Shown piece after piece: positions 10,556 to 16,719 of a stretch of DNA of 64,000 nucleotides. The position numbers and the translations under genes are program-made. Within the stretch, counting starts at the first letter, position 1, and every line of letters starts with the position of its first letter. Source of the DNA: Halarchaeum grantii (GTDB lineage Archaea; Halobacteriota; Halobacteria; Halobacteriales; Halobacteriaceae). Location: positions 558,001 through 622,000 of the forward strand of contig NZ_BMPF01000001.1 in NCBI RefSeq assembly GCF_014647455.2, read 5' to 3'. The notes beneath the pieces are model-generated. The model did no database searches. It had not been told where the DNA came from and saw only the letters and a program-made list of their open reading frames with translations.

Positions 10556-10966
10556 TTAGAGGGTCTCGTCGAGGATGAGGCGGGTCTTCGTAGTGGTGAC
10601 GTCGTCGAGTTCGCGGGTCTTGGTGATGAGTTCGTTGACGCGCGTGGTGTCCTTGGCGTCGACGACGACGACGATGTCGAGCTCGCCGGAGACCTGCCAG
10701 ACGAAGTCGACCTCGCTCCATTCGGCGATCTGGTCGCCGACGGCGTGCGTGTCGACGTCCACGGCGACGTCCACCTCGATCATGGCCTTGACGTTGCCGG
10801 TGCTGGTGGAGACCGTGAAGCGCTCGATGGTGCCCTCCTCCTGCAGGCGCTCGATGCGGTTCCGTATCGTCCCCTCGCTGACGCCGAGCTCGTCGCCGAT
10901 TTCGGTGTACGGCGTCCGCGCGTCTCGTCGGAGGACGTCGAGGATCTGCCGGTCGAGGTCGTCCAT
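10556..10966 (-). CDS. Lrp/AsnC family transcriptional regulator
   Basis: A 136-residue Lrp/AsnC protein. An N-terminal winged helix-turn-helix lies at residues 3-60 (LDRQILDVLRRDARTPYTEI, then VSEGTIRNRIERLQEEG). A C-terminal RAM effector/oligomerisation domain follows (about 62-136), with the GELDIVVVVDAKDTTRVNEL strand-helix unit. Lrp proteins bind palindromic sites as dimers or octamers, often under control of an amino acid. The gene is divergent from carA. The 97-nt shared intergenic region holds a perfect palindrome of the Lrp type, and a close relative stands before carB. I infer autoregulation and control of carbamoyl-phosphate synthesis, possibly sensing glutamine, arginine or a related metabolite. 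Confidence 0.93.
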   Translation of the reverse strand: MDDLDRQILDVLRRDARTPYTEIGDELGVSEGTIRNRIERLQEEGTIERFTVSTSTGNVKAMIEVDVAVDVDTHAVGDQIAEWSEVDFVWQVSGELDIVVVVDAKDTTRVNELITKTRELDDVTTTKTRLILDETL

Positions 10967-10996: not shown

Positions 10997-11013
10997 GTTA
11001 CGAAATTCGTAAC
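10997..11013. promoter_or_regulatory. perfect palindrome between lrp and carA, probable Lrp operator
   Basis: The 17-nt sequence GTTACGAAATTCGTAAC is an 8-bp inverted repeat (GTTACGAA/TTCGTAAC) around one central A. It lies just upstream of the carA TATA-like element. Seen from lrp it covers the position just upstream of that gene's promoter. A further half-site CTACGAAAG follows at 11018-11026. The same half-site recurs before carB. The adjoining regulator gene makes Lrp binding the simplest reading. Confidence 0.7.
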
Positions 11014-11030
11014 GATGCTACGAAAGCAAG

Positions 11031-11040
11031 CCTTATATTC
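11031..11040 (+). promoter_or_regulatory. carA TATA-like promoter element
   Basis: CCTTATATTC is centred about 28 nt before the carA ATG at 11064, the spacing expected for a transcript that begins at or within a base or two of the start codon. It directly follows the palindrome and half-site, so a bound regulator would compete with TBP/TFB or contact them. Confidence 0.7.
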
Positions 11041-11063
11041 GGCCCGTTCGTTCGTTTCTCGTA

Positions 11064-12122
11064 ATGTCGGACGCCTATCTCGCCCTCGAAACGGGGGACG
11101 TAGTCGAAGCGCGCGCACGCGCCCCGGGCGCCGCCCAGGGCGAACTCGTGTTCACGACCGCGTACACGGGCTACGAGGAGAGCCTCACTGACCCGTCCTA
11201 CGAAGCGCAAGTGCTCACCTTCGCGTACCCCCTCATCGGGAACTACGGCGTCCGAGAGGAGCGCTTCGAGTCCGACCGCGTCCACCCGCACGCCGTCGTC
11301 GCACGCGAGATGACGGACGACGTCGCCGAGTGGCTGGAGGCCGAGGGCGTCCCCGGCGTCGACCACGTCGACACCCGCGACCTCGTGACGGACATCCGCG
11401 ACCGTGGCGCCATGAAGGTCGGCGTCTCCGCCGGCCCCGAGGCCTCCCCCGAGGAGGCGAAGGCGCAACTCGAGAGCTGCCCGCACATGAGCGACATCAC
11501 GGACATCGGCGAGCGCGTCAGCGTGGACGAACCCGTCCACCACGCGGGCTCCGGCCCGCGCGTCGCGCTCGTCGACTGCGGGGCGAAGGGCTCCATCGTC
11601 GACTCGCTCACCGCGCGCAACGCCGACGTCCACGTCCTGCCCTACGACGTCTCGGCCGAGACGGTCGCGGACCTCGACCCGGACGTCCTCTTCATCTCGA
11701 ACGGCCCCGGCGACCCCGCGAACTTCGAGGCCACCGAGGCCCTCGTCACCCACTTCAAGGGCGACCTCCCCATCGCCGGCATCTGCCTCGGCCAGCAGGT
11801 CGTCGCCCGCGCGTTCGGCGGCACCACCGAGAAGATGACCTTCGGCCATCGCGGCGTCAACCAGCCCGTCCTCGACCACGAGTCCGGGCGCGTCGTCATG
11901 ACGACGCAGAACCACGGCTACACCGTCGACGAACCCGGTGACCTCACCGTCACGCAAGTGAACGTCAACGACGACACGCCGGAAGGCATCGACAGCGAGG
12001 AGTACGGCGTCCTCACCCGCCAGTACCACCCCGAGGCGAACCCCGGCCCGCACGACACCCTCGACTTCTTCGACGACGTGCTCGCGCTCGCCGAGGACCG
12101 CGCGGCGCTGACCGTCAACTAG
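11064..12122 (+). CDS. carA: carbamoyl-phosphate synthase small (glutaminase) subunit
   Basis: Hydrolyses glutamine and channels ammonia to CarB for carbamoyl phosphate, the precursor of pyrimidines and arginine. The 352-residue protein has the N-terminal CPSase small-chain domain (to about residue 150). A class I glutamine amidotransferase domain follows, with the nucleophile Cys241 in GICLGQQ and the catalytic His322 and Glu324 in YHPEANPGP. The oxyanion loop is ISNGPGDPANFE near 211-222. The TAG stop at 12120-12122 overlaps the stop of the convergent DUF7504 gene, because CTAG reads as TAG on both strands. carB is not adjacent: it lies about 1.3 kb away on the opposite strand. Confidence 0.97.
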   Translation: MSDAYLALETGDVVEARARAPGAAQGELVFTTAYTGYEESLTDPSYEAQVLTFAYPLIGNYGVREERFESDRVHPHAVVAREMTDDVAEWLEAEGVPGVDHVDTRDLVTDIRDRGAMKVGVSAGPEASPEEAKAQLESCPHMSDITDIGERVSVDEPVHHAGSGPRVALVDCGAKGSIVDSLTARNADVHVLPYDVSAETVADLDPDVLFISNGPGDPANFEATEALVTHFKGDLPIAGICLGQQVVARAFGGTTEKMTFGHRGVNQPVLDHESGRVVMTTQNHGYTVDEPGDLTVTQVNVNDDTPEGIDSEEYGVLTRQYHPEANPGPHDTLDFFDDVLALAEDRAALTVN

Positions 12123-13388: not shown

Positions 13389-16300
13389 TTACTCGTCGCG
13401 GCCGCCCCACTTCGCGTTCGTGATGGGGCGCGAGCTGACGGATTCGACGTCGAGGTCGTCGTCGCGGTGGGCGAGCGCCTCGAGGCTCGCCGTCGCGCTC
13501 GCGACCGTGGAGATGTAGGGGAAGTCCTCCTCGACGGCGGTCCGGAGCGCGTCGACGTCGTCACCGACGTAGAGGTCGATTTTGTCCGTGCGGATGGCCT
13601 CGGGGACGTCGTCGAAGGCCTCGACGTCGTAGTACTCCTCGAAGCCCTCGATGTCGAAGTCGACGACCGCGACGCCGCCCTCGGGGAGGTCGTTACCGGC
13701 CGCGGACTGGGCCTTCTCGTAGGCCTTCCCGAAAGTGCGGGCGGTGCCCATGACCTCGCCCGTGGACTTCATCTCGGGGCCGAGGCGCGGGTCGGCGCCC
13801 TCGAGGCGGTCGAACGGCAGGACGACCTCCTTCACGCTGTACTCCTCGGGGATGCCCTCCGCGACGTCGAGGTCGGCGAGGGACTGGCCGGCCATGACCT
13901 TCGCGGCGAGCTTCGCGATGGGGACGCCGGTCGCCTTCGAGACGAACGGCACGGTACGCGAGCTACGCGGGTTCGCCTCCAGCACGTACACTTCGCCGTC
14001 CTTCACGGCGAGCTGGACGTTGAGGAGGCCGACGGTTTCGAGGGCGCGCGCGATCTCCTCGACGACGTCGCGGACGCGGCCGAGCGTCTCCTCGTCGAGG
14101 TTGCGCGGCGGGATGACGCACGCGGAGTCCCCGGAGTGGACGCCGGCGGCCTCGACGTGCTCCATCACGCCACCGATGAGGACGTCCTCGCCGTCCGAGA
14201 CGGCGTCGACGTCGAGCTCGACGGCATCGGCGAGGAACTCGTCGACGAGGATGGGCTTGTCCGGGGAGACGCGGACGGCCTCCTCGATGTACTCCGTCAG
14301 CTCGGCGTCGCTGTGGACGACCTCCATCGCGCGCCCGCCGAGGACGTAGGACGGCCGGACGAGCACGGGATAGCCGAGGTCGTGTGCGAGGTCGAGCGCC
14401 TCGGACTCGCTGAACGCCGTCCCGCCGTCGGGTTGGCTGATTCCGAGGGAGTCCATGAGGACGTTGAAGCGGTCGCGGTCCTCCGCCAAGTCCATCGCCT
14501 CGACGCTCGTGCCGAGGATGGAGGCGTCGAGGCCGCGACGGTCGATCTCGGCCTCGAGTTCGTCCGCGACGTTGACGGACGTCTGGCCGCCGAACTGGAC
14601 CATCACGCCGTCCGCGCCCGTCGCCTCGACGACGTCCGCGACCTCCTCGGCGGTGATGGGTTCGAAGAACAGCCCATCAGAGGTGTCGTAGTCGGTGCTG
14701 ACCGTCTCGGGGTTGTTGTTGACGACGTGGGCCTCGACGCCCTCCTCCCGGAGCGCGCGCACCGCGTGGACGGAGCAGTAGTCGAACTCGACGCCCTGCC
14801 CGATGCGGATGGGGCCGCCGCCGACGACGACGACGGAATCGGTGTCGTGGTTCACTCGGAGCTCGCCGCCCGCGGCTTCGCCCTCGAAGGGGCCGCTGAA
14901 CCACTCGGGTGCGCGCGAGGAATAGTAGTACGGCGTGCGCGCCTCGAACTCGCCCGCGCAGGTGTCGACCTGCTTGTAGGTGCGGCCCGGGACGTCGGCC
15001 TCGACGTCGTCGATGGTGACGCCCGCGCCGTCCGGGCGCGCCTCCGGCTCGTCCTCGTCGGGGCCGTGGTCGACGTCGGCGGGCAGCCACGACTCGTGGG
15101 TGTCCGCGAACTCGCCGCCCGCGAGCGCCGTGATCTCGTGGTTCGTGAAGCCCTCGATGGCGGCGTCCGTGAACTCGCCGTGCTTCGCGCCGTCGGCGGC
15201 GTCGGCGACCCGCGCGAAGCGCTCGACGTACCACTCCTCGATGCCCGTCAGCTCGACGATCTCGTCGACGGAGTAGCCACGGTCGAACGCCTCGAAGAGC
15301 GCGTACGGGCGGTCGGGGCTCGGGCGCGCGACGTAGCGCTCCTCGAGCTCCGCGTCGCTGAGGCCCGCCCAGTCGACGTCGGGCTCGTACTCGCTGGAGC
15401 GCATCGCCTTCAGGAGCGACTCCTCGAAGGTGCGCCCGATGGCCATCGCCTCCCCCGTGCTTTTCATCGCGGTGCCGAGCGTGAAGTCGACGTCGTCGAA
15501 CTTGTCCTTGGGCCAGCGCGGCACCTTCGTGACGACGTAGTCGATGGCGGGCTCGAAGGCGGCGGTGGTCTCGCCCGTGATCTCGTTCGTGATCTCGTGG
15601 AGGCGCTTGCCGAGCGCGACCTTCGCGGTGACGCGCGCGATGGGGTAGCCCGTGGCCTTCGAGGCGAGCGCGGAGGAACGCGAGACGCGCGGGTTCACCT
15701 CCACCACTCTGTATTCGCCGCCCGGGGTGCCGTCGTCGTGCCACGCGAACTGGATGTTACAGCCGCCCTCGATTCCGAGGTCGCGGATGACTTCGAGCGC
15801 GGCGTCGCGCATCTCCTGGTGGCCGTCGTCGGGGATGACCTGACTGGGCGTCACGACCGTGCTCTCGCCGGTGTGGATGCCCATCGGGTCGATGTTCTCC
15901 ATGTTGCAGATGATGACGGTGGAGTCGCCGGCGTCGCGCATCACCTCGTACTCGAGTTCGACCCAGCCGGAGATGGACTCCGTGATGAGCACTTCCGAGT
16001 TCCGCGAGAGGCGCAGGCCCTTGCGGACGCGCGACTTCAGCTCGTCCATCTCCTCGACGACGCCGGAGCCCGACCCCCCGAGCGTGTACGTCGTGCGGGA
16101 GATGACGGGGAGGCCGCCGACCGCGTCGACGGCGTCCTCGACGCGCTCGGCGATGTCGTCCTCGTCGAGCGCTTGGACGGACTCGCCCTCGTCGAGCGAG
16201 ATGGTGGTCGAGCGCGGGACGGGCTGGCCGAGGTTCTCCATGCGCTTGCGGAAGAGGTCGCGGTCCTCGGTCGCGTAGATGGTGTCGAGCGGCGTCCCCA

Positions 16301-16637
16301 TGATCTCGACGTCGTACTCGTCGAGGACCCCCTCCTCGGCGAGTTCGGCGGTGACGTTTAGCCCTGTTTGCCCGCCGAGGCCGGCGATGACGCCGTCGGG
16401 GTTCTCCTTCGCGATGACCTCCGCGATGGCCTCGACGGTGATGGGTTCGATGTAGACCTCGTCCGCCATCTCGGGGTCCGTCATGATGGTGGCGGGGTTG
16501 GAGTTGACGAGGACGACTCGGGCACCCTCCTCTTGGAGGGCGCGACACGCCTGCGCGCCGGAGTAGTCGAACTCTGCCGCCTGGCCGATCTGTATCGGGC
16601 CGCTCCCGATGAGGAGGACGGTCCGGTCGTCACTCAT
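13389..16637 (-). CDS. carB: carbamoyl-phosphate synthase large subunit
   Basis: The 1082-residue synthetase makes carbamoyl phosphate from bicarbonate, ammonia delivered by CarA, and two ATP. Both homologous halves are present: N-terminal GSGPIQIGQAAEFDYSG at the start and the second-half GGGPIRIGQGVEFDYC near residue 610. Two ATP-grasp domains and a C-terminal allosteric (MGS-like) domain are present. Length agrees with the bacterial enzyme (about 1073). The gene is convergent to carA, separated from it by the three-gene DUF7504 operon. Its upstream region carries the same palindromic element as the lrp/carA region, so the two subunits are probably co-regulated despite not being an operon. 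Confidence 0.97.
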   Translation of the reverse strand: MSDDRTVLLIGSGPIQIGQAAEFDYSGAQACRALQEEGARVVLVNSNPATIMTDPEMADEVYIEPITVEAIAEVIAKENPDGVIAGLGGQTGLNVTAELAEEGVLDEYDVEIMGTPLDTIYATEDRDLFRKRMENLGQPVPRSTTISLDEGESVQALDEDDIAERVEDAVDAVGGLPVISRTTYTLGGSGSGVVEEMDELKSRVRKGLRLSRNSEVLITESISGWVELEYEVMRDAGDSTVIICNMENIDPMGIHTGESTVVTPSQVIPDDGHQEMRDAALEVIRDLGIEGGCNIQFAWHDDGTPGGEYRVVEVNPRVSRSSALASKATGYPIARVTAKVALGKRLHEITNEITGETTAAFEPAIDYVVTKVPRWPKDKFDDVDFTLGTAMKSTGEAMAIGRTFEESLLKAMRSSEYEPDVDWAGLSDAELEERYVARPSPDRPYALFEAFDRGYSVDEIVELTGIEEWYVERFARVADAADGAKHGEFTDAAIEGFTNHEITALAGGEFADTHESWLPADVDHGPDEDEPEARPDGAGVTIDDVEADVPGRTYKQVDTCAGEFEARTPYYYSSRAPEWFSGPFEGEAAGGELRVNHDTDSVVVVGGGPIRIGQGVEFDYCSVHAVRALREEGVEAHVVNNNPETVSTDYDTSDGLFFEPITAEEVADVVEATGADGVMVQFGGQTSVNVADELEAEIDRRGLDASILGTSVEAMDLAEDRDRFNVLMDSLGISQPDGGTAFSESEALDLAHDLGYPVLVRPSYVLGGRAMEVVHSDAELTEYIEEAVRVSPDKPILVDEFLADAVELDVDAVSDGEDVLIGGVMEHVEAAGVHSGDSACVIPPRNLDEETLGRVRDVVEEIARALETVGLLNVQLAVKDGEVYVLEANPRSSRTVPFVSKATGVPIAKLAAKVMAGQSLADLDVAEGIPEEYSVKEVVLPFDRLEGADPRLGPEMKSTGEVMGTARTFGKAYEKAQSAAGNDLPEGGVAVVDFDIEGFEEYYDVEAFDDVPEAIRTDKIDLYVGDDVDALRTAVEEDFPYISTVASATASLEALAHRDDDLDVESVSSRPITNAKWGGRDE

Positions 16638-16691
16638 GTGTAGCTAGGTCGAATGCGTACATCGTAATAAGCGAAACGAAAGAGTGCAAAT

Positions 16692-16719
16692 CTCGTAATC
16701 GGATTACGAAAATCGTAAC
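16692..16719. promoter_or_regulatory. double palindrome upstream of carB, probable Lrp operator
   Basis: Two overlapping inverted repeats share the half-site ATTACGA. The first is TCGTAAT-CGG-ATTACGA (16693-16709), a perfect 7-bp repeat with a 3-nt centre. The second is ATTACGAAAATCGTAAC (16703-16719), matching the lrp/carA palindrome at 15 of 17 positions. A third half-site TCGTAAT lies at 16663-16669, over a TATA-like element of carB (reverse strand, about 16661-16670), which is 25-30 nt from the start. Confidence 0.65.

Follow-up and report, generated by a model that had tools for sequence, protein, structure and literature searches.

In Halarchaeum grantii, the genes for the two subunits of carbamoyl-phosphate synthase, carA and carB, converge on one another and form no operon, and carB has its own promoter. 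This arrangement, already recognized in the initial annotation, raises the question of how the two subunits are kept in balance. The answer proposed there was an operator common to both promoters and to a neighboring lrp gene. The core idea, that carA and carB share a Trh3-type regulator, is known from work published in 2014: according to the main text of PMC4177876, Trh3 of Halobacterium salinarum was proposed to coordinate the nonoperonic carA and carB as well as itself, and chromatin immunoprecipitation (ChIP) placed it at the trh3, carA, and carB promoters. We examined the operator in the window (the whole stretch of DNA analyzed, 64 kb), in the 3.02-Mb genome, and across 59 genomes including this one.

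Paired palindromes and a three-site array

The palindrome before carB (ATTACGAAAATCGTAAC, read on the forward strand) lies 5.7 kb from its twin in the lrp/carA spacer (GTTACGAAATTCGTAAC) and differs from it at two positions, exactly as first described. Elsewhere in the window no place matches the palindrome with up to 3 mismatches (0.01 expected from shuffles of the 64 kb). Genome-wide, the exact sequence TTACGAnnnTCGTAA occurs twice, each time at a car promoter, compared with ∼0.03 occurrences expected per 3.02 Mb under a first-order Markov model with the dinucleotide composition of the window. The sole place with 1 mismatch (C2:476914) falls within a long open reading frame that we take to be an RNA polymerase subunit gene.

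At both carB and the lrp/carA spacer, the palindrome is the first of three sites at 0, +20, and +51/52 bp, approximately 2 and 3 helical turns apart (Table 1). The TATA-like element sits inside the array in each case, at +34/35 between sites 2 and 3 of carA and at +48 under site 3 of carB. A third half-site noted earlier over the carB promoter belongs to this arrangement, being the TCGTAAT at 16662-16668 that forms part of site 3 and covers the TATA-like CTTATTA. The initial annotation had also reported a second perfect inverted repeat overlapping the first. The repeat is present, and ATTACGA is common to it and the site 1 palindrome, but it is not a separate element: since carA also has a half-site (of the TACGA/TTCGA type) at the same +20 distance, the overlapping carB palindrome is a member of the array, namely the +20 half-site facing site 1, and we rejected a separate role for it. 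Ss-LrpB and similar archaeal Lrp regulators likewise use multiple pseudo-palindromic boxes placed at roughly integral numbers of helical turns, with a different spacing and different targets.

Table 1. Positions in the window of the predicted operator sites and the genes they adjoin
Feature	Position	Strand	Basis
carB operator site 1, core 15-mer TTACGATTTTCGTAA at 16704-16718	16703..16719	-	sequence, conservation
Inverted repeat TCGTAAT-CGG-ATTACGA	16693..16709	.	near half of site 1 plus half-site at +20
carB operator site 2 (TTACGAGATTTGCAC), site 1 +20 bp	16684..16698	-	sequence, conservation
carB operator site 3 (TTACGATGTACGCAT), site 1 +51 bp, overlaps TATA box	16653..16667	-	sequence, conservation
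carB TATA-like CTTATTA	16665..16671	-	sequence and conservation; TATA role inferred
carB, carbamoyl-phosphate synthase large subunit	13389..16637	-	
Site 1 in lrp/carA spacer (GTTACGAAATTCGTAAC), core 10998-11012	10997..11013	+	sequence
carA site 2 (CTACGAAAG...), site 1 +20 bp	11018..11032	+	sequence
carA TATA-like TTATAT, site 1 +35 bp	11033..11038	+	TATA role inferred
carA site 3; half TCGTAA (11059-11064) enters ATG start codon	11050..11064	+	sequence
carA, carbamoyl-phosphate synthase small subunit	11064..12122	+	
Lrp/AsnC-family regulator (lrp), position of H. salinarum Trh3	10556..10966	-	domain profiles, synteny

The regulator beside carA

The lrp product combines an N-terminal AsnC-type helix-turn-helix (PF13404, 63.4 bits; cutoff, 27) with an AsnC ligand-binding (RAM) domain (PF01037, 46.7 bits; cutoff, 25), which places it in the Lrp/AsnC family. 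LysM of Sulfolobus acts on target genes other than car. Its equivalog model (NF040947) is the nearest named NCBIfam model and matches the lrp product over the full length, but the score of 116.6 bits falls below the curated cutoff of 180, and the protein is not assigned to LysM. The closest named relatives by regulator identity are Halarchaeum species (96, 94, and 94%).

A single match to the regulator at an E value of ≤1e-20, taken as its orthologue, was found in each of 54 of the 59 genomes; carA was found in all 59 and carB in 57 (E ≤ 1e-200). Regulator and carA are oriented divergently around a common promoter region in the window and in 80/80 named loci, which were chosen by their regulator. 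Synteny and the single match per genome suggest that the lrp gene beside carA is the counterpart of Trh3. In three genomes (G034, G036, and G049) lrp does not adjoin carA; its neighbor is presumably a P-type ATPase-like open reading frame in G034 and a replication-factor-C-like one in G049. In G036 (L219:819-2335), the regulator and a palindrome lie beside a gene of the amino-acid-kinase family (AA_kinase being its only Pfam match), which we assume to encode a carbamate kinase, and carA and carB are located elsewhere without arrays.

Conservation at carA and lrp

Across 81 sequences including the window, the carA-side palindrome is perfect in 69, has 1 mismatch in 11, and has 2 mismatches in 1. 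In 78 of the 80 named loci, site 1 lies at −66/−65 relative to the inferred carA start codon; in the other two, the tblastn match to carA begins at residue 4. The TATA-like element starts at +35 (62/81) or +34 (19/81), and a TCGTAA-like half-site runs into the carA start codon at +61 (67/81) or +60 (14/81). The consensus clearly shows the middle site, CTtCGAA near +20, and a stricter definition counts 27/81 at +20.

In 6/80 loci (L067, L070, L071, L076, L100, and L103) the spacer between lrp and carA is enlarged to 265 to 794 bp, and a palindrome is found at each gene. This supports the prediction, drawn from sequence, that lrp itself is under array control. On the lrp side, the second element 51 bp away is kept in five of the six; the sixth, L103, has no paired +51 element within 3 mismatches there. 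Two of the enlarged spacers (L071 and L076) contain a reading frame of ∼160 codons between the two palindromes.

Arrays at carB follow the regulator

The motif conserved at carA is also conserved at carB across haloarchaea. The element CTTATTACGATG was present with ≤2 mismatches at 50 of 57 carB promoters, with site 1 lying 51 bp upstream of site 3 and a strict site 2 half at +20 in 24/50. We aligned the carB promoters on the TATA element, which selects for site 3, so that the 50/50 at +51 are partly by construction.

The array persists in register regardless of the distance between carB and lrp: in 36/39 genomes with carB within 20 kb of lrp, in 7/7 with carB farther away on the same contig (61 kb to 1.85 Mb), and in 5/6 with carB on another contig, a class in which draft genomes may hide linkage. 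Absence of the element from relatives sharing the gene order had been named in the initial annotation as a ground for refutation, and the outcome of this check favors the shared operator. Each of the three linked exceptions to the fixed register (G033, G039, and G053) has a model match (see below) at another spacing, among the matches listed.

When the 57 carB genomes were classed by regulator, the carB array was found in 0/5 genomes in which the regulator was not found, which supports a shared operator for an Lrp-type regulator. These five represent three lineages, one comprising G026, G042, and G055 (a single genus) and the others G035 and G051. G037, of the same genus as G051, has both the regulator and the array, as does G050, of the same family as G035. 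No pieces of the regulator were detected beside carA in any of the five, and no site better than 3 mismatches was detected upstream of carA. Because G026, G042, G051, and G055 are incomplete (66 to 78%), the result for these genomes is firm for local absence only. Upstream of carA in L214, L215, and L216 (from the small genomes G026, G042, and G055), we observed what looks like the decayed remnant of an array, ACTTGATAC..TTCTTCGAAAT.

Specificity across genomes

The 59 genomes contain 34 exact sites, of which 27 are at lrp, 6 at carB, and 1 elsewhere. We then scanned the genomes (E ≤ 0.5) with a 32-position sequence model built from 30 of the car/lrp operators. The model matched 54/59 genomes, nearly always only at car/lrp places among the matches listed, corresponding to about two operators per genome; in H. 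grantii the four matches are the two operators read on both strands. Matches to the 30 members themselves arise by construction, and only the scarcity of other matches is informative. Weak extra matches among those listed include G048:C1:391096, G033:C28, and two in G046.

Predicted mechanism and alternatives

Based on the conservation of the array, its absence without the regulator, and the Trh3 ChIP data in the main text of PMC4177876, the shared operator first suggested for the two promoters is supported. We consider it likely that the palindrome anchors a predicted Lrp/AsnC operator through which lrp, carA, and carB undergo ligand-gated corepression. The product of the lrp gene next to carA would bind site 1 as an anchor, a ligand-loaded multimer of Lrp dimers may fill the phased sites, and the filled array could bend or wrap the DNA over the core promoter. 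All three genes would be repressed together and freed by loss of the ligand. Arginine, glutamine, and lysine are predicted Trh3 effectors in the accessible part of PMC4236453. G036 is a counter-case, with lrp and the palindrome present and carA and carB lacking arrays. More tentatively, and short of an even chance in our estimation, the rigid unit of three phased sites, set in two promoters at different TATA registers, may act as a two-operator “operon in trans” across most Halobacteria, with a regulator that couples only the two subunits and itself.

The same regulator and operator might instead mainly activate, in that a dimer at site 1 recruits the transcription machinery and the other two sites tune it. 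Site 1 does lie upstream of the TATA element, which begins 34 to 35 bp from the site 1 start at carA and 48 bp from it at carB, and the trh3 level correlates positively, if weakly, with its targets carA and carB (0.45 and 0.40; main text of PMC4177876). Regulator, carA, and carB also drop together in Haloferax volcanii, where HVO_2507 (Lrp/AsnC), carA, and carB change by −3.77, −4.45, and −4.23 log2 in an RNA-seq table of PMC11899642 and by −3.17, −2.56, and −2.04 log2 in a second RNA-seq table, these genes being tied to the circuit by gene annotation only. Table 1 of PMC11899642 has both car genes strongly down-regulated, whereas its text (section 3.5) describes them as up-regulated. Such covariation is, however, equally expected from an autorepressed regulator, and in the sets examined site 3 covers the TATA element (carB) or the start codon (carA), a usual place for repression. 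A mainly activating role appears less likely, although it is the strongest of the alternatives.

It is improbable that the array is read by one or more other Lrp-family paralogues and not solely by the product of the neighboring gene. Eight proteins of this kind, which overlap in their promoters and motifs, are present in H. salinarum, and Trh3 and Trh4 among them are similar (accessible part of PMC4236453), but the array is absent from the 5/57 carB genomes without an orthologue of the adjacent regulator, including G051 as opposed to G037 and G035 as opposed to G050. That an AT-rich promoter merely happens to be palindromic can be virtually dismissed: site 3 of carB does overlap a TATA-like element, but the two exact sites against ∼0.03 expected, the placement of 33/34 exact sites at lrp or carB, the spacing fixed across families, and the way the array follows the regulator (0/5 without it) all contradict chance or core-promoter likeness.

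Relation to the published circuit

The H. grantii locus resembles the Trh3-carA-carB circuit in having an Lrp/AsnC regulator that shares the carA promoter region, a separately transcribed carB, and a motif at both. For 18 species, the main text of PMC4177876 describes a pair of conserved signals at carA/trh3 and a single motif at carB; it also gives 14 predicted Trh3 promoters. Here, in contrast, the same phased three-site array occurs at both promoters, is kept together with the regulator even when carB is distant or unlinked, is absent without the regulator, and amounts to about two operators per genome among the matches listed. In the literature searched, mostly nonsubscription papers and including the main text of PMC4177876, we found neither the three-site spacing nor its absence from genomes lacking the regulator described.

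These arrays provide a clean natural experiment, staying when the target gene moves off and being absent when the regulator is absent, and illustrate how two subunits of one enzyme can be coregulated over long spans of evolution even though they share no operon. They also suggest that the Trh3-type regulon is nearer to two operators per genome, among the matches listed, than to the fourteen promoters predicted earlier. In H. salinarum, carA and carB expression correlates at 0.69 overall, in favor of the corepression model, but the correlation is lost under some stresses (main text of PMC4177876); this loss counts against the model, as does the weak correlation of trh3 with its targets. In the H. 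volcanii table of PMC11899642, uraA1 falls along with carA and carB; although no evidence for binding, this parallel fall hints at a pyrimidine link.
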